From: a virus
Virus record (IMG/VR): IMGVR_UViG_3300002835_000416
Location: 1-40,758 of that record
Direction: 5' to 3' (one strand)
Length of the DNA: 40,758 bases
This document shows, piece by piece, positions 6,025-40,227 of this stretch. Position 1 is the first letter of the stretch; the number at the start of each line of letters is the position of its first letter. The notes under the pieces are model-generated. The model saw only the letters and a list, made by a program, of their open reading frames with translations, was not told the origin of the DNA and ran no database searches. Both the position numbers and the translations under genes were made by a program.

Positions 6025-6331
6025 AAAGTGGTGGGATTCTGTTGCCAGGTCCCCACCGAACCCCGTTCAGGCAGCTAGTGCCATCTCAGATGCGTAATTA
6101 TCGTTTGCATCTATTGTTTTGGACTAATTGTCGGTCGTTCCTTACCGATTACCTCCGCAACCTTTACACTTCTGTCGAATCCCTTTCACCCCCATTAGCC
6201 AACACACTTAATCCCTCACTTTTGGGGTTTCTCAAGCAGCTGCTTGGGTTACGGCCCTAGTGTGTTGACTGGTGGAGGTGGCGGCATTGAAGCCGCGTCC
6301 AGACAGTTTATTACGTTGTTATCAACAGTAA
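6025..6331 (-). ncRNA. ssrA: Circularly permuted two-piece tmRNA (transfer-messenger RNA)
   Basis: Read on the - strand, the acceptor piece comes first: TSS about 6331, T arm GCGGCTTCAATGCCGC (6281-6296), then CACCTCCACCA ending at 6270. After a 76-nt intervening segment the coding piece starts at 6193 with GGGGGTGAAAGGGATTCGAC. GGGGGTG pairs with CACCTCC to form a complete 7-bp acceptor stem with one G-U. The tag ORF (6108 to 6067) reads ANDNYASEMALAA plus TGA, ending in the ALAA degron recognised by ClpXP. The 3' side has CCTGGCAACAGAA in a hairpin (GGTGGG/CCCACC), as in alphaproteobacterial tmRNAs. GACAG after TTC in the coding piece can pair with CTGTC in the acceptor piece (P2). The T loop is 6 nt rather than 7. 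tmRNA rescues stalled ribosomes and tags the nascent peptide for proteolysis. Exact mature ends are estimates. Confidence 0.92.
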
Positions 6332-6337
6332 TATCGT

Positions 6338-6366
6338 ATTATATTACATTATTTAGTGCTTGTCAA
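6338..6366 (-). promoter_or_regulatory. Consensus sigma70 promoter of the tmRNA gene
   Basis: TTGACA (6361-6366), 17-nt spacer, TATAAT (6338-6343): a perfect consensus promoter about 7 nt upstream of the predicted acceptor piece. The -35 box is inside the last codons of the exonuclease gene. Confidence 0.85.
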
Positions 6367-7005
6367 CAAAGAAATGAATTGAGTCTTGTACTTAGTCAAA
6401 TTTGCAGGAATGCAGCTAGATTCAGTTTCTGCCGATGCAAATAACAATACCCCCAAATCAATTTTTACGCCAGTTCTTTCTTCATATGCCAAAGAATATG
6501 CCGACAACTGCATGAAATATTTCTTGACCTTATCCATGCTGGAATCAGCTTCCGACTTGGTCGTCTTGAAATCAATGATCGCCGGATATCCATCAAATGT
6601 ACCTATTGCATCACATCTTCCTGCAAACTTATATTGATCAGAATATAAAGGCGCTTCAACGGCGTATACTTCATCAATTCGATCAATATGTTTTCTTAAC
6701 TCAAGAAACATAAATGAAACATCTGGCATATGACCGCGCGTAGGCTTTTCTTCATTGAGCAAATATCGCTCACAGACTTGATGAAGATTTTTTCCGCGTC
6801 GAGCTGATACGCCAGATACTCGCTTGGCTTCTTCTTCTCCAACTCTATTTTGCCATTCTTTCAAACTCTCGTTTGGCAATCGTGACAAAATAGTAGTGAC
6901 GGAAGGATACACATTTCCCTCTGGAGTTCTATAATGCCTCCTTCCGTCAATATACTCTTCCTCAAGATTTGGAAGATTCACAAATGAATGATGAAACTTT
7001 TTCAT
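6349..7005 (-). CDS. PD-(D/E)XK exonuclease (MGME1/RecB-like)
   Basis: 218 aa. GRRHYRTPEGNVYPSVTTIL near the N-terminus and GRCDAIGTFDGYPAIIDFKT (about 128-147) give the D...DxK active site of the MGME1/Cas4/RecB nuclease group often found in T4-like phages; the final helix QLSAYSLAYEERTG fits motif IV. It probably processes DNA ends during replication or recombination. The start overlaps the stop of the small membrane gene upstream by one base (TAATG). Confidence 0.8.
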   Translation of the reverse strand: MKKFHHSFVNLPNLEEEYIDGRRHYRTPEGNVYPSVTTILSRLPNESLKEWQNRVGEEEAKRVSGVSARRGKNLHQVCERYLLNEEKPTRGHMPDVSFMFLELRKHIDRIDEVYAVEAPLYSDQYKFAGRCDAIGTFDGYPAIIDFKTTKSEADSSMDKVKKYFMQLSAYSLAYEERTGVKIDLGVLLFASAETESSCIPANLTKYKTQFISLLTSTK

Positions 7006-23487: not shown

Positions 23488-23673
23488 CTAGGTCTTTATG
23501 TCTATCTGGAATATAGCCATGAATCCAGACTTGACGCAGACTTGATCCCAGACTTTATAATAGACTTCATCCAAGACTTGACCATAGACTTGACCATCAT
23601 GGACTTGATCATTGACTTGATCATAGGCTTTATCTCTGACTTGAAGATAGACTTGGTCTTTGACTGATTTCAT
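23488..23673 (-). CDS. Tetrapeptide-repeat protein, last of array 1
   Basis: 61 aa. After eleven or so QV tetrads it reads DGQV (an in-frame extra residue) and ends with a unique tail CVKSGFMAIFQIDIKT instead of the DKARTxP end, because the array stops here. About 145 nt downstream (23342-23487) hold no gene. Confidence 0.6.
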   Translation of the reverse strand: MKSVKDQVYLQVRDKAYDQVNDQVHDGQVYGQVLDEVYYKVWDQVCVKSGFMAIFQIDIKT

Positions 23674-23843
23674 TGTTTGGTTCTCAATACTTGATACAAG
23701 ACTTGACTCTCGACTTGACTCTCGACTTGATCCCAGACTTGATTCCAGGCTTGATTCCAGACTTGATCCCAGACTTGATGTCTGACTTGATGTCTGACTT
23801 GACCATAGACTTGATTTCTGACTTGGTTTATGACTGATTTCAT
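23670..23843 (-). CDS. Tetrapeptide-repeat protein
   Basis: 57 aa, MKSVINQVRNQVYGQVRHQV opening, two ESQV tetrads near the end and terminus VLRTKQ. ATGA overlap at both ends. Confidence 0.65.
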   Translation of the reverse strand: MKSVINQVRNQVYGQVRHQVRHQVWDQVWNQAWNQVWDQVESQVESQVLYQVLRTKQ

Positions 23844-24022
23844 GGTTCGGTTCTCGCTTTATGCCTGACTTTATCCAAGACTTGTCCTCTGACTTGATCC
23901 CAGACTTGACGATAGACTTGATCTCTGACTTGATCTTGGACTTGAATCCAGACTTGATCATAGACTTGATCTTGGACTTGAATCCAGACTTGATCCCAGA
24001 CTTGACGCCTGACTGGTTTCAT
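23840..24022 (-). CDS. Tetrapeptide-repeat protein
   Basis: 60 aa, MKPV start, uninterrupted tetrads including two WIQVQDQV doublets, ending HKARTEP. Confidence 0.65.
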   Translation of the reverse strand: MKPVRRQVWDQVWIQVQDQVYDQVWIQVQDQVRDQVYRQVWDQVRGQVLDKVRHKARTEP

Positions 24023-24080
24023 TGTTTGGTTCTCGCTTTATTCAAGACGTTACGCATGACTTCCTGCCAGCTGCCAGACT

Positions 24081-24221
24081 TTATACGAGTCTGGCGCGCC
24101 AGACTTGATCGCCGACTTGATCCCAGACTTGCTCCGTAACTTGATGCAAGACTTGATGTCTAACTTGATCCAAGACTTGACGCCTGACTTGATCTCGGAC
24201 TTGGATTATGACTGATTTCAT
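24081..24221 (-). pseudogene. Truncated tetrapeptide-repeat member
   Basis: 46 aa. Tetrads run to GDQVWRARLV and a TAA stops the frame early. The following 58 nt to the next unit are diverged (they include CTGGCAGCTGGCAGGAAG) and no longer connect by an ATGA join. Confidence 0.6.
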
Positions 24222-24400
24222 GGATTGGTTCTCAATTTGGACAAGACTTGACGCCCAACTTGAATCCAGACTTGAGACCTGACTTGATTCCGGACTTGAT
24301 CATTGACTTGACCATAGGCTTTATCTCTGACTTGATTCCAAACTTGATCATGGGCTTGAAAATAGCCTTGATCTCTGACTTGGTTTTTGACGGATTTCAT
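24218..24400 (-). CDS. Tetrapeptide-repeat protein
   Basis: 60 aa; contains degenerate tetrads DQGY, FQAH and DKAY among the QV units, ending SKLRTNP. Confidence 0.65.
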   Translation of the reverse strand: MKSVKNQVRDQGYFQAHDQVWNQVRDKAYGQVNDQVRNQVRSQVWIQVGRQVLSKLRTNP

Positions 24401-24579
24401 GATTTGGATCTCGCTTTATCCAAGACTTTACGCGAGACTTGAACATAGACTTGACGATAGACTTGAACCACGACTTGATCCCAGACTGGTTCCTCAACTT
24501 GGTCCAAGACTTTACGCCTGACTTGACCATAGGCTTTATCTCTGACTTTATTCCTGACTTGATTTATGACTGATTTCAT
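24397..24579 (-). CDS. Tetrapeptide-repeat protein
   Basis: 60 aa with several Lys-for-Gln tetrads (RNKV, RRKV, SRKV) and EEPV; ends DKARSKS. Confidence 0.65.
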   Translation of the reverse strand: MKSVINQVRNKVRDKAYGQVRRKVLDQVEEPVWDQVVVQVYRQVYVQVSRKVLDKARSKS

Positions 24580-24721
24580 GGATTGGTTCTCGCTTTATGC
24601 CAGACTTGACGCGGACTTGATCACAGACTTTATAATAGACTTCATCAAAGACTTGACAATAGACTTGATCTCGGACTTGATCATAGACTTGATCTCGGAC
24701 TTGGATTATGACTGATTTCAT
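24548..24721 (-). pseudogene. Frameshifted tetrapeptide-repeat member
   Basis: 57 aa as read, but after CDQVR the frame switches to VKSGIKREPIHEISHKSSQE and overruns into the next gene by 32 nt. A single missing base within GTCCGCGTCAAGTC accounts for it; restoring one base recovers an HKARTNP-type end with the usual ATGA join at 24576-24579. Confidence 0.65.
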
Positions 24722-24924
24722 GGATTGATTCCCAATTTGGACAAGACTTTACGCCCAACTTGATGCCAGACTTGAGACTTGACTTGATCTTGGACTTGAA
24801 TCCAGACTTGACCATAGACTTGATCTTGGACTTGATGTCTGGCTTGATTCCGGACTTGATCATTGACTTGATCCCAGACTTTATCCCTGACTTGATCTCT
24901 GACTTGTTTTCTGACGGATTTCAT
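24718..24924 (-). CDS. Tetrapeptide-repeat protein
   Basis: 68 aa, one of the longest; tetrads include RNQARHQVQDQV and KSQV; ends SKLGINP. Confidence 0.65.
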   Translation of the reverse strand: MKSVRKQVRDQVRDKVWDQVNDQVRNQARHQVQDQVYGQVWIQVQDQVKSQVWHQVGRKVLSKLGINP

Positions 24925-25103
24925 GGTTCGGTTCTCGTTTTATCCCAGACTTTATCCCAGACTTGATCCTCGACTTGATCAGAGACTTGATTCCGAACTT
25001 GATTCCAGATTTGACGATTGACTTGAAGCTGAACTTGATCCCTGACTTGATCTGTAAATTGATCCGTGACTTTATACCAGACTTTGTTTCTGACTGGTTT
25101 CAT
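24921..25103 (-). CDS. Tetrapeptide-repeat protein
   Basis: 60 aa, MKPV start; Phe and Ile replace Val in TDQF and RQIW; ends DKTRTEP. Confidence 0.65.
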   Translation of the reverse strand: MKPVRNKVWYKVTDQFTDQVRDQVQLQVNRQIWNQVRNQVSDQVEDQVWDKVWDKTRTEP

Positions 25104-25282
25104 TGTTTGTACCTGACTTTATGCAAGACTTGAATCCAGACTTGACCATAGACTTGATCTTGGACTTGATCCAAGACTTGACCATAGACTTGATCCCAGA
25201 CTTGATTCAAGACTTGATCATCGACTTTATCGCAGACTTGATCCAAGACTTGATCCAAGACTTGACGCCTGACTGATTTCAT
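25100..25282 (-). CDS. Tetrapeptide-repeat protein
   Basis: 60 aa; carries a DQVCDKVDDQV stretch, the only Cys-containing tetrad in this member; ends VRYKQ. Confidence 0.65.
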   Translation of the reverse strand: MKSVRRQVLDQVLDQVCDKVDDQVLNQVWDQVYGQVLDQVQDQVYGQVWIQVLHKVRYKQ

Positions 25283-25473
25283 TGTTTGGCTCTCGCTTTA
25301 TGCCTGACTTTATGCAAGACTTGATCTCTGACTTGACCATAGACTTGATCCCAGACTTGACGCCAGACTTGATTCCAGACTTGATCATTGACTTGATTTC
25401 TGACTTGTTCTCTGACTTGACCATAGACTTGATCCCAGACTTGAACTCTGACTTGATTTCTGATTGATTTCAT
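25279..25473 (-). CDS. Tetrapeptide-repeat protein
   Basis: 64 aa from the family-type ATG 25473 (MKSIRNQV). A GTG four codons upstream overlaps the previous stop but is a by-product of that gene's nonsense change. Ends HKARAKQ. Confidence 0.65.
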   Translation of the reverse strand: MKSIRNQVRVQVWDQVYGQVREQVRNQVNDQVWNQVWRQVWDQVYGQVRDQVLHKVRHKARAKQ

Positions 25474-25481
25474 GGATTGAT

Positions 25482-25664
25482 TCACAATTTGGACAAGACT
25501 TGAACATAGACTTGATACCAGACTTGATGCCTGACTTGATTCCAGACTTGATTCAAGACTTGTTCTCTGACTTGATCATAGATTTGAAATCTGACTTGAT
25601 CCTCGACTTGACGCCAGACTTGGCGGTCGACTTGATTTCTGACTTGATTTATGACGGATTTCAT
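25482..25664 (-). CDS. Tetrapeptide-repeat protein, shortened end
   Basis: 60 aa. Ends VLSKL because GGA became TGA relative to the SKLGINP end of its homologue at 24718-24924; it therefore stops 9 nt before the next ATG, without the ATGA join. Confidence 0.6.
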   Translation of the reverse strand: MKSVINQVRNQVDRQVWRQVEDQVRFQIYDQVREQVLNQVWNQVRHQVWYQVYVQVLSKL

Positions 25665-25684
25665 GGTTTGGTACTCGCTTTGGA

Positions 25685-25867
25685 TCAGCCTTCACCCCTG
25701 ACTTGAATCTCGACTTTACGCCAGACTTGATCATTGACTTGATCCCAGACTTTATCCCAGACTTGAACCCTGACTGAAACCAAGACTTTATGTCCGACTG
25801 GACCATAGAATTGACGCCAGACTTGATTTACGACTTGATCTTTGACTTGATCTTTGACTGATTTCAT
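25685..25867 (-). CDS. Diverged tetrapeptide-repeat protein
   Basis: 60 aa; the middle (RQFYGPVGHKVLVSVRVQV) departs from Q-V and the end is VRGEG. The frame leaves the canonical join, so a 20-nt gap separates it from the next ORF. Confidence 0.55.
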   Translation of the reverse strand: MKSVKDQVKDQVVNQVWRQFYGPVGHKVLVSVRVQVWDKVWDQVNDQVWRKVEIQVRGEG

Positions 25868-26046
25868 GATTCGGTTTTCGCTTTATCCAAGATTTTATCT
25901 CTGAGTTGATTCCAGACTTGATTTTGGACCTGATTCTGGACTTGATGCCAGACTTGACGCATGATTTGATAATGGACTTGATCCCAGAATTGATGTTCGA
26001 CTTTATTCACGACTGTTCCCGTGACTTGACGCCTGACTGATTTCAT
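25864..26046 (-). CDS. Diverged tetrapeptide-repeat protein
   Basis: 60 aa; opens [20 protein letters not shown], with aliphatic residues still every fourth position, then regular tetrads; ends DKAKTES. Confidence 0.6.
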   Translation of the reverse strand: MKSVRRQVTGTVVNKVEHQFWDQVHYQIMRQVWHQVQNQVQNQVWNQLRDKILDKAKTES

Positions 26047-26120
26047 TGTTTGGTTCTCAATACTTGATCCAAGACTTGATCCCAGACTTGACGATAGACT
26101 TGACTTTTGACTGATTTCAT
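26043..26120 (-). CDS. Very short tetrapeptide-repeat protein
   Basis: 25 aa ([20 protein letters not shown], ending LRTKQ), with ATGA joins on both sides. It looks like an in-frame deletion of most tetrads; its ends are intact. Confidence 0.6.
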
Positions 26121-26299
26121 GGTTCTTCTCTCGCTTTGGACAAGACTTTGTAGCCGACTCGACTCCAGACTTGATTCCGGACTTGAGACCTGACTTGATC
26201 TTGGACTTGAATCCAGACTTGAGACCTGACTTGATCTTGGACTTGACGCCAGACTTGATTCCCGACTTGATCTCTGATTTGATTTACGACTGATTTCAT
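26117..26299 (-). CDS. Tetrapeptide-repeat protein
   Basis: 60 aa with a duplicated QDQVRSQV block; ends LSKAREEP. Confidence 0.65.
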
Positions 26300-26481
26300 G
26301 ATTTGGTTCTCGCTTTGTCCAAGACTTGATCGCAGACTTGACGCAAGACTTGTTTTTCGATTTGATCCAAGGCTTGATACTGGACTTGATTATAAACTTG
26401 GATATCAACTTGTTTCAGGACTTCGCCTATGACTCGACGCATGACTTGATTAATTGTGATCTGAAATTTGGTGGATTTCAT
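26296..26481 (-). CDS. Diverged tetrapeptide-repeat protein
   Basis: 61 aa, opens MKSTKFQITINQVMRRVIGE; spacing slips by one residue near the start and tetrads become regular later; ends DKARTKS. Confidence 0.6.
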   Translation of the reverse strand: MKSTKFQITINQVMRRVIGEVLKQVDIQVYNQVQYQALDQIEKQVLRQVCDQVLDKARTKS

Positions 26482-26659
26482 GATTCGGCACTCGCTTTAG
26501 ACAGACTTTATTCCTAACTTGATTCTCAGCTTGATCCCAGACTTGATCCTCGACTTGACGCCTGACTTGATTCCAGACTTGTTTCTCGACTTGATCATAG
26601 ATTTGAAATCTGACTTGATCCTCGACTTGACGCCAGACTTGTTTCTCGACTGATTTCAT
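26450..26659 (-). CDS. Tetrapeptide-repeat protein with shifted C-terminus
   Basis: 69 aa. Regular tetrads up to NQVRNKV, then CLKRVPNHEIHQISDHN: the frame has moved off the canonical KAR(T) end and overlaps the next gene by 32 nt instead of 4. Confidence 0.55.
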   Translation of the reverse strand: MKSVEKQVWRQVEDQVRFQIYDQVEKQVWNQVRRQVEDQVWDQAENQVRNKVCLKRVPNHEIHQISDHN

Positions 26660-26697: not shown

Positions 26698-26838
26698 CTA
26701 GACTCTGCCACAAGCCGGATCAGTATCAAAGATCACATGATATGATAAAGTAAAATCATCAGAAGCCACTTGACTTACGACTTCTTTGAGGACACAGTCT
26801 CTGACCCAATATGCAATTTCATCTTTGACAGGATTCAT
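26698..26838 (-). CDS. Array-leading member without perfect repeats
   Basis: 46 aa, MNPVKDEIAYWVRDCVLKEV then VSQV. Val/Ile still falls every fourth residue although the DNA shows no 12-nt repeat; C-terminus unrelated. ATGA join to its upstream neighbour. Confidence 0.55.
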   Translation of the reverse strand: MNPVKDEIAYWVRDCVLKEVVSQVASDDFTLSYHVIFDTDPACGRV

Positions 26839-27020
26839 GATCTGTATACGTCTATATTTCGTAGTGCTGTCAATACTGTTCCCATGGGGTTTTGGTCCCA
26901 GACTGGGTCTGATATTTTCCCCCAAATCTCATGATGCACCGCAACGTTGGTTTCTTTTACGACCTGTCTTTCGATTAAAAACTTGGTGTGATTTTGAATT
27001 TCATCCGCGACTGGTTTCAT
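26835..27020 (-). CDS. Array-leading member without perfect repeats
   Basis: 61 aa, MKPVADEIQNHTKFLIERQV opening; partial period-4 pattern (EIWGKISDPV) in the middle. ATGA joins on both sides. Confidence 0.55.
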   Translation of the reverse strand: MKPVADEIQNHTKFLIERQVVKETNVAVHHEIWGKISDPVWDQNPMGTVLTALRNIDVYRS

Positions 27021-27205
27021 AGCTTCATCGAATCCATCTTATCAAAGATCTTGTTTCTAACTTGCGAAGCGTGTTGTTCCCATACTGGCAAATTGATTTT
27101 TCTCCAGGTTAAATTCCAGATTTTGGGACTAACTTGCTTTTGAATTTGCCGCGAAACGTCATAGGAGGGATGATCAAAAATCTTCGCAAGGACTGTGTTA
27201 TTCAT
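27017..27205 (-). CDS. First member of array 1, degenerate repeat
   Basis: 62 aa, MNNTVLAKIFDHPSYDVSRQ then IQKQVSPKIWNL; period-4 aliphatics and Trp are still recognisable. Joined by ATGA to the 27202-27414 gene upstream. Confidence 0.55.
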   Translation of the reverse strand: MNNTVLAKIFDHPSYDVSRQIQKQVSPKIWNLTWRKINLPVWEQHASQVRNKIFDKMDSMKL

Positions 27206-27821: not shown

Positions 27822-28367
27822 CTACTCGCAAGAGTAGATCTGTTCCGACCGCCGCAGCGGCAGCCATCGCGGCACGGTCGTGAATGACTTGTCGCGGAAC
27901 AGGACTCGGTTGGTCGGCTGGATGGTCAGGCGACCGCCATCGGTTCGCAGGAACATGAACTCCTTCGCCTGAGCCGGCGCGTGTGTGTAGGCGTCACCGA
28001 CAGGGATGGCCGTGAACAGGTATTCCGCGCCCAGCTCGGCGTCTGCCGCGCGCACGATCGCGGTGAGGCCGTCGAGGTAGTCGTAGATGTGCAGGGAGAA
28101 CTGCGAGCTGTAGCAGTCCCATTCCTGCGCGTCCTTGATCGTCCACGGATCGGGGTCGCTGCAGAACGCCAGCGCGTGGGGCGGAAGGTCTCGGTAGACC
28201 GCGCCGGACTCTAGCAGCACTGTGCATCCCCATGCGCGGCCAGGATGGCTGTGCAAGCCGAACCAGACCGCAGGGAACCATTCGTCGGCGCCGAAGCCGA
28301 TGAAAGCCCCGCAGACCGAAACGTACTGATGGTGCGGCAGGCTGCCGCTGGCGGTGAAGAGCGTCAT
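27822..28367 (-). CDS. GC-rich hypothetical protein
   Basis: 181 aa, MTLFTASGSLPHHQYVSVCG then AFIGFGADEWFPAVWFGLHS. Strongly GC-rich compared with the flanking genes, suggesting separate origin. No family recognised. Coupled to the upstream gene by ATGA. Confidence 0.55.
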   Translation of the reverse strand: MTLFTASGSLPHHQYVSVCGAFIGFGADEWFPAVWFGLHSHPGRAWGCTVLLESGAVYRDLPPHALAFCSDPDPWTIKDAQEWDCYSSQFSLHIYDYLDGLTAIVRAADAELGAEYLFTAIPVGDAYTHAPAQAKEFMFLRTDGGRLTIQPTNRVLFRDKSFTTVPRWLPLRRSEQIYSCE

Positions 28368-31967: not shown

Positions 31968-32150
31968 TCAATCTTCTTTTTCGATTTCGCGAAGAACTGC
32001 GTGTAGACAATTTCTCAGTCCACATTTCTTGACTTCAAAAATAGTTTCAGCACGAATTTTGTTTCGTGCTTTTTTACTTGTTTGAAGAGACACCTCATTC
32101 CAACAATTCATAGTCGGATCGGAAAACAATTTATCATGGACTGATTTCAT
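31968..32150 (-). CDS. Last ORF of array 2, non-repetitive
   Basis: 60 aa; keeps the MKSV start and ATGA join but then reads HDKLFSDPTMNCWNEVSLQT and a Cys-containing acidic end. It is either a captured gene fused to the array's start signal or a strongly diverged member. Confidence 0.55.
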   Translation of the reverse strand: MKSVHDKLFSDPTMNCWNEVSLQTSKKARNKIRAETIFEVKKCGLRNCLHAVLREIEKED

Positions 32151-32353
32151 GATTTGGTTCTCGCTTTATGCAAGATTTGATTATTGACTTGATCCACGAC
32201 TTGATCTCCAACTTGTGCCCAGACTTGATCTCTAACTTTATCTCGGACTTGATCTCTAACTTTATCTTGGACTTGATCCAAGACTTGATCCAATACTTGA
32301 CCATAGACTTGAATCATGACTTGATCCCAGACTTGGTTCACGACACATTTCAT
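32147..32353 (-). CDS. Tetrapeptide-repeat protein
   Basis: 68 aa, MKCVVNQV start; alternating DKV and DQV tetrads (QDKVRDQVRDKVRDQV); ends HKARTKS. Confidence 0.65.
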   Translation of the reverse strand: MKCVVNQVWDQVMIQVYGQVLDQVLDQVQDKVRDQVRDKVRDQVWAQVGDQVVDQVNNQILHKARTKS

Positions 32354-32526
32354 GATTCGGTTCTCGCTTTATGCAAGACTTTAAACGCGACTTGATCCCG
32401 GATTTGACTCCAGACTTGAGCTTGAGCATGGACTTGAAGGTCTACTTGATCCTCGACTTGATCGGTAACTTGATCATGGACTTGATTCCAGACTTGATCA
32501 TAGAATTGACTTTTGACTGATTTCAT
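32350..32526 (-). CDS. Tetrapeptide-repeat protein
   Basis: 58 aa (MKSVKSQFYDQVWNQVHDQV start), includes a two-residue insertion HAQAQV that offsets the period; ends HKARTES. Confidence 0.65.
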   Translation of the reverse strand: MKSVKSQFYDQVWNQVHDQVTDQVEDQVDLQVHAQAQVWSQIRDQVAFKVLHKARTES

Positions 32527-32729
32527 GGTTCTGTTTTCGCTTTATTCGCGACTTTACGCCCAACTTGAATCCAGACTTGATTCCAGACTTGATGTCTGAC
32601 TTGATGCCAGACTTGATCTCTGACTTGACCCTCGACTTGATCCCTGAGTTGAATCTGGACTTGAATCTGGACTTGATCTCTGACTTGATCCAAGACTTGT
32701 TCTCTGACTTGTTTTCTGACTGATTTCAT
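32523..32729 (-). CDS. Tetrapeptide-repeat protein
   Basis: 68 aa with QIQVQIQLRDQV in the middle; ends NKAKTEP. Confidence 0.65.
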   Translation of the reverse strand: MKSVRKQVREQVLDQVRDQVQIQVQIQLRDQVEGQVRDQVWHQVRHQVWNQVWIQVGRKVANKAKTEP

Positions 32730-32896
32730 GGTTTGGATCTCGCTTTATTCCCGACTTTACGCCCAACTTGATCCCAGACTTGACCATAGACTTGATCCCA
32801 GACTTGATCTCGGACTTGGTCCGAGACTTTACGCGAGACTTGAACACAGACTTGATCTCTGACTTGAATCCAGACTTGATCTTTGACTGATTTCAT
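32726..32896 (-). CDS. Tetrapeptide-repeat protein
   Basis: 56 aa ([20 protein letters not shown] start); GRKV tetrads near the end; ends NKARSKP. Confidence 0.65.
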   Translation of the reverse strand: MKSVKDQVWIQVRDQVCVQVSRKVSDQVRDQVWDQVYGQVWDQVGRKVGNKARSKP

Positions 32897-33075
32897 GGTT
32901 CGGTTCTCGCTTTATCCAAGACTTTATCATGGATTTGATCCCAGACTTCAACCTCGACTTGATTCCAGACTTGATCCCAGATTTGGTACCAGACTTGATC
33001 CCAGACTTGTTCCTCGATTTTATCCCGGACTTCATCCAAGACATCATACCAGACTTTGTTTCTGACCGATTTCAT
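32893..33075 (-). CDS. Tetrapeptide-repeat protein
   Basis: 60 aa, more acidic than its neighbours ([19 protein letters not shown]); ends DKARTEP. Confidence 0.65.
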
Positions 33076-33266
33076 GGTTCGGTTCTCGCTTTGTCCAAGA
33101 CTTTATCTCTGATTCGAATCCCGACTTGAATCAAGACTTGATCCCCGACTTGATGCCAGACTTGATTCCCGACTTGAATCAAGACTTGATTCCCGACTTG
33201 AATCAAGACTTGATCCCAGACTTGTTCCTCGACTTGATCTCTGACTTGATCTTTGACTGATTTCAT
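33072..33266 (-). CDS. Tetrapeptide-repeat protein (identical twin A)
   Basis: 64 aa, identical in protein and DNA to the next unit; alternates LIQVGNQV blocks and ends with the non-tetrad [16 protein letters not shown]. Confidence 0.7.
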
Positions 33267-33453
33267 GGTTCGGTTCTCGCTTTGTCCAAGACTTTATCTC
33301 TGATTCGAATCCCGACTTGAATCAAGACTTGATCCCCGACTTGATGCCAGACTTGATTCCCGACTTGAATCAAGACTTGATTCCCGACTTGAATCAAGAC
33401 TTGATCCCAGACTTGTTCCTCGACTTGATCTCTGACTTGATCTTTGACTGATT
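33072..33453 (-). repeat. Perfect 191-bp tandem duplication
   Basis: 33072-33262 and 33263-33453 show no difference on direct comparison; about 83 nt of the next unit are also identical. Confidence 0.9.
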
Positions 33454-33457
33454 TCAT
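33263..33457 (-). CDS. Tetrapeptide-repeat protein (identical twin B)
   Basis: 64 aa; second copy of a 191-bp tandem duplication. Start and stop joins are both ATGA. Confidence 0.7.
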
Positions 33458-33636
33458 GGTTCGGTTCTCGCTTTGTCCAAGACTTTATCTCTGATTCGAA
33501 TCCCGACTTGAATCAAGACTTGATCCCCGACTTGATACCAGACTTGATTCCGGACTTGAACTCTGACTTGATCATCGACTTGATAGAAGACTTGACCCTC
33601 GACTTGATCCCTGACTTGATCTTTGACTGATTTCAT
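33454..33636 (-). CDS. First tetrapeptide-repeat protein of array 2
   Basis: 60 aa from ATG 33636. Its last 27 or so codons match the twin units exactly, the first part differs (VEGQVFYQVDDQVRVQV). No clear Shine-Dalgarno precedes it; a GTG at 33684 upstream lies in the terminator and is rejected. Confidence 0.65.
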   Translation of the reverse strand: MKSVKDQVRDQVEGQVFYQVDDQVRVQVRNQVWYQVGDQVLIQVGIRIRDKVLDKARTEP

Positions 33637-33684: not shown

Positions 33685-34548
33685 TCAGGTACGAACCTCT
33701 GGAACATACTCAGCGGGCTTCAGACCATAGCTCCATGCGTTGGCCTCAAGAGCAGTCTTCATGTCAGGCGGAACAGGAAGCGCAAAGTTACGTCCCGTGC
33801 CACACTTCACGAAAAGAAACTTCTCCTTGCCAATGTCTGGAATATCAACCTCCAGCAGTGTGCCGATCATCTCATCAGCATCCTCATCAATCACCGTGGA
33901 ATCAAGCTGATCGATGACATTAGCCCAACCCAGGATCTCACACGCAGCACGACGCAGCTCCGCGTTGGTCTGACCAAGAGCAACCTTCGCGGTCAGGCTC
34001 TTGCGGTCCTTGATCCACTCGTCAGGAATGGTCTGACCATGCCACGAATAGATCTCAAAGCCATCGCGATACCGAATTGCTGGACCAGTCTCGCAATGCG
34101 AGAGACGACGATCATCAAACTTGATGACCTCGGGACGATCATGAATAATCGCCTCGGTCTCGCCACAGTAAACCCAGCCACAGTTCCGAGCCAGCTCCTG
34201 CATGTAGCTGATGTCAGTCAGTTCGATATTGGTCTCGTTACGATAGTAATCGTAATAGGAAAGCCAAGAAGCTTCCATCGAACCGAACATGCAACCAGCC
34301 GTATAGTCCGAACGGCTCTTGTTGCCAGAACGCTTCTTGAAGATCTTAAAGCCCTCATCTGGACCCTTCGCGAAATGATACATCTTCGGCTCAGGAAGAC
34401 CAACGGCAGTATATGCCCTTGCTACGAGACCCTTGGCCTTCTTGAAATCGACAGGCTCCGTGGCAAGGCCGATGTCAACCCACTTGGTGACATACTTCGG
34501 CATCGCCTCGGTCTGGTTCTTGGTAAGACTGGTAAGCTTCTTCGTCAT
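33685..34548 (-). CDS. DUF6745-like protein
   Basis: 287 aa. LSHCETGPAIRYRDGFEIYS followed by WHGQTIPDEWI (about 149-179) is the DUF6745 hallmark; the C-terminal half has DIGKEKFLFVKCGTGRNFAL and PPDMKTALEANAW. Such proteins occur in phages and bacteria, often beside the family encoded by the next gene upstream (34678-35037). Function unknown. Confidence 0.7.
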   Translation of the reverse strand: MTKKLTSLTKNQTEAMPKYVTKWVDIGLATEPVDFKKAKGLVARAYTAVGLPEPKMYHFAKGPDEGFKIFKKRSGNKSRSDYTAGCMFGSMEASWLSYYDYYRNETNIELTDISYMQELARNCGWVYCGETEAIIHDRPEVIKFDDRRLSHCETGPAIRYRDGFEIYSWHGQTIPDEWIKDRKSLTAKVALGQTNAELRRAACEILGWANVIDQLDSTVIDEDADEMIGTLLEVDIPDIGKEKFLFVKCGTGRNFALPVPPDMKTALEANAWSYGLKPAEYVPEVRT

Positions 34549-39557: not shown

Positions 39558-39743
39558 TCACACCATGCGCCCACTCATATCGTTATAGCCCCAAGTTTCA
39601 GCATCTTCAAGTATTTTGTGTGCTGCTTTGCCAACTATCCATTCCACAGGAGGTCCCATTCCAACTTCTGGATATCTTCTATCATAGTGATAGATATCAA
39701 ATGCCTTCTCTGTTAGCAATTTAATTAGTTGATGCTTGTTCAT
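39558..39743 (-). CDS. Small hypothetical protein
   Basis: 61 aa from ATG 39743, sharing a base with the upstream stop (TGATG). MNKHQLIKLLTEKAFDIYHY and WIVGKAAHKILEDAETWG. Its opening resembles the MNxxIxxL starts of the FGVE paralogues next to it. Confidence 0.6.
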   Translation of the reverse strand: MNKHQLIKLLTEKAFDIYHYDRRYPEVGMGPPVEWIVGKAAHKILEDAETWGYNDMSGRMV

Positions 39744-39994
39744 CACTCAACTCCGAAATGTTCTTTGATCTCATCGCCGCAAGAATACGCTGTATCTCTA
39801 CCCTCGCTATCGTGACAACCTGCTCTATCTTTAGCAATCGAATTGCATACATCAACACATTCCCTGACAATCAACTCAGCAAAGAGTTGATTGTATAGAT
39901 AAAACCAATCTTCATCATAGGGAAATTCTTTTTCTGTGGCCAAATAATTTGCATGTTCGGCAAGTTCTGTAATTAGCTCATTTATCTTGTTCAT
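39743..39994 (-). CDS. FGVE-family paralogue 1
   Basis: 83 aa from ATG 39994. The last 46 residues (FAELIVRECVDVCNSIAKDR, EIKEHFGVE) are nearly identical to paralogue 2; the first 37 differ. No domain is recognised. Confidence 0.65.
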   Translation of the reverse strand: MNKINELITELAEHANYLATEKEFPYDEDWFYLYNQLFAELIVRECVDVCNSIAKDRAGCHDSEGRDTAYSCGDEIKEHFGVE

Positions 39995-40227
39995 CACTCA
40001 ACTCCGAAATGTTCTTTGATCTCATCGCCGCAAGAATACGCTGTATCTCTACCCTCGCGATCATGATAACTTGCTCTATCTTTAGCAATCGAATTGCATA
40101 CATCAACACATTCCCTGACAATCAACTCGGCAAACTTTTGCATTGTTTCAGAACCCACATACCAATGGTATTTGTGGTCCCAACCTGCCCCAGCCTGTTC
40201 AGCAAGTTGTTTAATTCGTGTGTTCAT
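39994..40227 (-). CDS. FGVE-family paralogue 2
   Basis: 77 aa, MNTRIKQLAEQAGAGWDHKY then the same C-terminal module as paralogue 1, with YHDREG in place of CHDSEG. Starts inside the end of the 40211-40357 gene. Confidence 0.65.
   Translation of the reverse strand: MNTRIKQLAEQAGAGWDHKYHWYVGSETMQKFAELIVRECVDVCNSIAKDRASYHDREGRDTAYSCGDEIKEHFGVE

Follow-up and report, generated by a model that had tools for sequence, protein, structure and literature searches.

The T4 internal-protein locus IP1 holds hypervariable small accessory genes of T4-like phages and is tied to host defence; its products, which are packaged in the head, bear an N-terminal capsid-targeting peptide and have no tetrapeptide repeat. 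Immunity-gene arrays beside polymorphic toxins combine a conserved gene with tandem, diversified small partners, and pentapeptide-repeat and other short-period repeat proteins are built from a very short unit with hypervariable positions around a fixed pair. Here we analyse the virus record IMGVR_UViG_3300002835_000416 (40,758 bases, the whole of which we call the window), in which two arrays of tiny genes encode repeats of four residues, the last two being Gln-Val (QV), and a separate gene encodes a protein of the family DUF6745 (PF20530).

The arrays resemble the IP1 locus in their hypervariable small genes and differ from it in that their products are tetrapeptide repeats. They also share the short unit and the variable positions around a fixed pair with pentapeptide repeats, which, however, have a period of 5, the motif A(D/N)LXX and a beta-solenoid fold, whereas the arrays have a period of 4 and a predicted helix. 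Unlike the immunity arrays, no toxin domain was recognised here, and the small genes encode repeat rods that resemble an insert of their partner. Frame need not be kept in clustered regularly interspaced short palindromic repeats (CRISPR) or other non-coding repeat arrays, whereas the window arrays keep one frame free of stops. Compared with DUF6745 members that bear a period-4 insert, the window has 26 separate repeat genes and a repeat-free DUF6745. We find that the arrays are protein coding, form a two-part architecture with DUF6745 that recurs among viruses, turn over fast and show an elevated ratio of nonsynonymous to synonymous differences (pN/pS). With moderate confidence, and judging from sequence comparison, we propose that DUF6745 acts as a hub to which the array proteins contribute variable, exchangeable binding arms, probably amid conflict with hosts or rival phages.

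The repeat arrays are protein coding

Array 1 (Table 1) is built from the 12-nucleotide (nt) unit NNN NNT CAA GTC. All of its open reading frames (ORFs) start with ATGAAATC or ATGAAACC (MKSV, MKPV, MKSI or MKST), most end in a DKARTEP-like tail, and their commonest length is 60 amino acids (aa); one is truncated by a break in the repeat (24221-24081) and another has only 25 aa (26120-26043). Twelve of the 17 joins are 4-nt ATGA overlaps, the others being two 32-nt overlaps and three small gaps (+20, +8 and +58). In array 2, two neighbouring genes (33457-33263 and 33266-33072) encode identical proteins. Pairing of the ribosome-binding kind was enriched 5' of array starts (duplex energy <= -4 in 44% versus 27% within genes, p = 2e-8), and in arrays with a different repeat, xNAT, the codons of the conserved tail (ELEHV, EELKDV) contain a GGAA-like stretch ahead of the next ATG.

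Coding was assessed by shuffling the variable columns among the 141 adjacent unit pairs of the window arrays and counting stops in each frame. The QV frame contained no stops against 25.7 ± 3.2 expected, whereas the two other frames were at expectation (9 versus 6.5 and 12 versus 15.0). The same held for other QV arrays (700 pairs in 19 strand-blocks), with no QV-frame stops versus 62.7 ± 5.6 expected and the remaining frames near expectation. We conclude that the QV arrays are protein coding and that chance avoidance of stops is excluded.

The spelling of the repeat in the window is nonetheless so uniform that it could suggest an element acting as DNA or RNA (binding sites, a recombination target or a guide-like array), with coding incidental. 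The 231 xxQV units of the two arrays use CAA in 230 cases and GTC in 212, against 54% CAA and 30% GTC in the remaining genes, and the 7-nt core TCAAGTC is nearly invariant. Eighteen different amino acids occur at position 1 (W 50, R 50, Y 25, L 22) and 14 at position 2 (D 95, N 35, I 21, R 16). A first exact-pattern scan returned >100 viral stretches spelled like the window and suggested a universal DNA motif; it demanded the CAAGTC spelling and was hence biased. In the codon-neutral search that followed, this motif was gone and the idea was dismissed: Q-V was spelled TCAAGTC, TCAGGTC, CCAGGTC, CCAAGTG, CCAAGTC, TCAGGTT or GCAAGTC, mostly homogeneously in each array. Q-V is kept between genomes and its DNA spelling only within them, as expected of amplification inside each genome, and the array-specific synonymous spelling marks the motif as a feature of the protein. 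On the stop test and these spelling differences we dismissed the DNA-element explanation, which we consider very improbable. The core varies between arrays at synonymous sites only, the DNA of other repeat flavours is unrelated, and stop avoidance is confined to the QV frame. Diverged genes, moreover, retain a hydrophobic period after the core is lost: in two such genes upstream of array 1 (Table 1), every fourth residue is hydrophobic and the CAAGTC spelling is gone.

These results agree with the initial annotation, which had described array 1 as 18 tandem minus-strand ORFs with a 12-nt coding repeat, a common start and tail and mostly ATGA joins, had read it as protein coding, and had seen in it a single polycistronic run with starts coupled to stops, on which re-initiation could act. 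Its reading would have been refuted by relatives in which the 12-nt repeat persists while frames and joins do not; the relatives found retain both and differ in DNA spelling.

DUF6745 occurs in fused and split forms

The window DUF6745 lies directly upstream of array 2, and its orthologues are likewise repeat-free beside arrays. In other viruses and a few bacterial genomes the family has a fused form, with a long hypervariable period-4 repeat inserted after the N-terminal helices and before the main domain. The fused flavours include xxQV (loci L034, L052, L061, L133, L229 and others), xSAT (L254), xxAT (L256), xxAV (L255) and xSSL (L261); although unrelated in DNA, they occupy one and the same place in DUF6745. 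In the split form, a repeat-free DUF6745 stands beside arrays of ~61-aa repeat genes. W and R dominate position 1 of free and fused QV repeats alike, accompanied by G and S and, in the free ones, also by Y; 3-4 codons are used at this position among fused proteins and 4-28 in free arrays. Very long fused repeats were also observed, as in L122 (1-1400), where QV repeats run on in shifted frames before DUF6745, and in L402 (3435-5711), whose DUF6745 bears AT-type repeats and is 758 aa long.

The system extends over ~100 viral loci, and the arrangement seen in the window recurs, with rapidly changing array gene content, in dozens of other viruses. Most bacterial loci with a single pattern hit were rejected, as they apparently reflect chance hits or proteins of other kinds, such as TPQV repeats in helicase-like regulators. 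The loci examined were classed according to whether they contain a full-size DUF6745 and whether they contain free-standing QV genes. A repeat-free DUF6745 was found with an array in 31 loci and without one in 9, a repeat-bearing DUF6745 without an array in 21 and with one in none (Fisher p = 1e-9, assuming independent loci). Several of these nine are exceptions in appearance only: array ORFs do occur in L183, and L064 and L055 lost repeat sequence to contig ends or the length filter. The DUF6745 gene often lies <100 nt from the array on the same strand, several pairs overlapping. Among array contigs >140 kilobases (kb) that were searched whole, DUF6745 was present in 4 of 4, and a search of 20 unrelated viral contigs found no DUF6745. 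L183 is a contig of a metagenome-assembled genome binned as Bacteroidetes, with QV arrays and a repeat-free DUF6745; a separate contig of that genome holds a phage gp32, and the assembly probably represents phage contigs binned with a bacterium.

The split does not concern QV repeats only. In L252 and L382/L383, a repeat-free DUF6745 is flanked by mostly overlapping xNAT-repeat genes of 61-89 aa, and the 149-kb contig of L383 has ten matches to such genes within one 6-kb stretch. Many relatives of these loci are fused with AT-type repeats (L254, L256, L386-L388, L390, L398, L405 and L406). At least two separate splits thus seem to have occurred, starting from different flavours, and the genes produced are mostly ~60-75 aa.

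This linkage also bears on whether each small protein could be a stand-alone decoy or inhibitor of a host-defence or rival-phage protein, sharing no more than ancestry with DUF6745. Fast diversification and a multi-copy layout suit arms-race proteins, and for some repeat-free DUF6745s the available DNA shows no array. Yet the repeat-free DUF6745 stays beside the arrays throughout the split clade and is again retained beside them in the xNAT split, and we regard stand-alone action as rather doubtful.

Arrays turn over rapidly

Over the flanks, L245 and the window agree at 98% identity, yet the window lacks close counterparts of most L245 array genes. Similarly, an 11-kb stretch is 99.9% identical between L043 and L070, while their arrays are unlike in gene number and length. 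Lengths inside one array mostly differ by 4-aa steps. In three orthologous array-gene pairs, pN was 0.112 and pS 0.090 (pN/pS 1.25), compared with ratios of 0.15 and 0.19 in flanking genes. The idea that invariant synonymous sites reflect purifying selection on the DNA was dismissed: array pS in L245 (~0.07, two L245 pairs) equals the 0.07 of flanking genes, and the excess therefore resides in pN. Codons 1 and 2 of the repeat apparently diversify under positive selection.

The 12-nt steps, the uniform spelling of each array and the presence of identical, recent copies all speak for an active repeat-generating process, and slippage and recombination might by themselves keep producing in-frame copies of little function. 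Such selfish or neutral expansion is, in our estimate, improbable, given that stops are wholly absent from one frame only, that gene length is fixed and joins are maintained, and that linkage to a repeat-free DUF6745 has held over deep divergence.

Predicted structure and family searches

AlphaFold2 predicted a window array protein as a single helix spanning residues 3-58 (predicted local distance difference test, pLDDT, 91; predicted template modelling score, pTM, 0.47). A four-residue period is unlike that of a classical coiled coil, and AlphaFold2 is prone to helices for such repeats, so the helical fold is tentative. Searching for a higher-order period at the variable position, as solenoid turns would give, yielded weak signals only in free arrays (W at lag 3, z = 3.1) and none in fused repeats. 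Across QV arrays with unrelated termini, ORFs are of uniform length (n = 345, median 61 aa, quartiles 54-67). Uniform length, a predicted single long helix and many copies per genome would fit rods that self-assemble by polymerising or co-assembling, whether as filaments or as a structural layer; DUF6745 would be their cap or anchor, and variation would set which rods pair. Structural polymers, however, are usually conserved, whereas these arrays differ between near-identical strains and have a pN/pS above 1, and the fused form sets the repeat within a soluble-looking protein; we find this assembly role unlikely.

No PDB match was obtained for the fused DUF6745 model in a fold search at E <= 0.001, the best second-look hit (Z 5.4) covering part of the C-terminal sheet; at the same threshold, a viral library returned only DUF6745 or unnamed phage proteins. 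The window array protein had no Pfam match above cut-off and no PDB match by sequence. Its score for DUF4816 (PF16086) was 19.7 bits (E = 8e-4), below the cut-off of 29.4 bits; this short repeat-like match reached E <= 0.01 in 16 of the 51 array proteins scanned, the best value being 3.5e-6. Among the Pfam families matched by these 51 proteins there was no pentapeptide family, the QV units analysed having a period of 4 (12 nt), and no DUF6745 domain, which limits their kinship with DUF6745 to the repeat insert. Neither DUF6745 nor the array protein matched anti-phage defence entries of PADLOC-DB at E <= 0.01, and an NCBIfam search gave nothing useful for these proteins. When the array sequence was compared with cultured phages, no match was obtained, but low-complexity filters may conceal such arrays. 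Diversity-generating retroelements have a reverse transcriptase with template and variable repeats close by; no reverse transcriptase was found among the window proteins scanned, which represent part of the ORFs. DUF6745 was unmentioned in the literature searched.

Source virus and other features of the window

The window carries markers of a T4-like myovirus (tail tube, baseplate hub, gp32, exonuclease and PhoH genes), and the closest cultured relatives of its gp32 include Pelagibacter phage HTVC008M and cyanophages. A transfer-messenger RNA (tmRNA) gene at 6027-6382 (minus strand) is of the permuted alphaproteobacterial kind (Rfam alpha_tmRNA, 135 bits; ARAGORN tag ANDNYASEMALAA). The presence of this tmRNA in a T4-like phage hints at an alphaproteobacterial host. 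Phage-borne genes also encode a PstS-like phosphate-binding protein (PF12849; 9735-10781, minus strand) and a ferritin/Dps-like protein (PF00210; 8859-9428, plus strand). At 39743-40227 (minus strand), two adjoining paralogues with the same C-terminal half (FAELIVRECVDVCNSIAKDRA...) mark a recent partial duplication. The gene at 27822-28367 (minus strand) encodes a 181-aa protein without a Pfam family and has 95 relatives among viral contigs; ~20 of these are 94-97% identical, and the rest of their contigs barely matches the window. Near-identity inside otherwise unrelated contigs suggests mobile-cargo-like behaviour and makes this gene useless as an anchor for array orthologues.

Table 1. Coordinates of the repeat genes, their diverged relatives and the DUF6745 gene in the window
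Feature	Coordinates	Strand	Description
Array 1	23488..26659	-	18 overlapping ORFs, 25-69 aa, xxQV repeats
Array 1 ORFs, first six	26659-26450, 26481-26296, 26299-26117, 26120-26043, 26046-25864, 25867-25685	-	
Array 1 ORFs, next six	25664-25482, 25473-25279, 25282-25100, 25103-24921, 24924-24718, 24721-24548	-	
Array 1 ORFs, last six	24579-24397, 24400-24218, 24221-24081, 24022-23840, 23843-23670, 23673-23488	-	
Array 2	32147..33636	-	8 ORFs, 56-68 aa; ATGA at every join
Degenerate ninth, last member of array 2	31968..32150	-	MKSV start and ATGA join retained, repeat mostly gone; period-4 test p = 0.16
Diverged array-gene relative	26835..27020	-	61 aa, MKPV start; period-4 hydrophobicity p = 0.02 versus shuffles
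Diverged array-gene relative	27017..27205	-	62 aa, ATGA join to next gene; period-4 hydrophobicity p = 0.0002 versus shuffles
DUF6745 protein	33685..34548	-	287 aa, repeat-free; PF20530, 102.8 bits (curated cut-off 27), E = 2e-29; directly upstream of array 2

Discussion

We propose a two-part viral system in which DUF6745 would be the conserved half and a rod-like four-residue repeat the variable half, each unit consisting of one variable residue, one semi-variable residue and a fixed pair such as Q-V. The fused form holds one repeat block inside DUF6745. In the split form, represented by the window, the block would have been excised, set to ~60 aa (~15 units) and copied many times over as overlapping genes, which may be translated from one message by re-initiation. 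Gain, loss and exchange of units would proceed in whole steps of 12 nt while codons 1 and 2 diversify. The repeat proteins may then physically join DUF6745 as exchangeable binding arms, diversifying to follow fast-changing partners among host defences or rival phages, conflict with which is the usual driver of such turnover.

Several observations weigh against this proposal. In the AlphaFold2 model of a fused DUF6745, the flanking domains are confident and the helical repeat is of low confidence (53-69). The pN/pS above 1 comes from three orthologous pairs only, with single pairs ranging from 0.44 to 2.95. A repeat-free DUF6745 has no array in the available DNA in the L247 group, L381, L384, L385 and Ma-LMM01 (8.7 kb only); either the repeat is not always needed or arrays lie beyond the available DNA. 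Finally, a repeat-excluded tree of DUF6745 places the QV-split proteins in essentially one clade (Shimodaira-Hasegawa approximate likelihood-ratio test, SH-aLRT, 97) plus two long-branch outliers. This main clade corresponds to about one event, so the loci are not independent and the Fisher value overstates their independence. The second split, with xNAT repeats, carries more weight in this respect.

Of the interpretation offered by the initial annotation, coding, layout and variation stood, including in-frame length change by 12-nt steps and the absence of a known family for the small proteins, which no curated family clearly covers. It overlooked the DUF6745 partner with its fused and split forms, further repeat flavours and the breadth of viral loci. 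The comparisons favour a variable binding arm acting with DUF6745 over its ideas of a multivalent binder, a scaffold or a decoy, while leaving room for these. More tentatively, and with less than even confidence, we suggest a combinatorial recognition system in which one conserved hub would be served by dozens of recombining, positively selected rods made by chained re-initiation, giving new specificities within 99.9%-identical strains, the repeat gene having split off at least twice from different flavours.

If the proposal is true, phages would possess a widespread, unstudied system of variable proteins that outpaces the rest of the genome, keeps its frame and uses a four-residue unit. DUF6745, a family without known function, would gain natural partners, and its fused and split forms would allow direct tests of interaction. 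The arrays would moreover offer repeat binders from a compact natural source.

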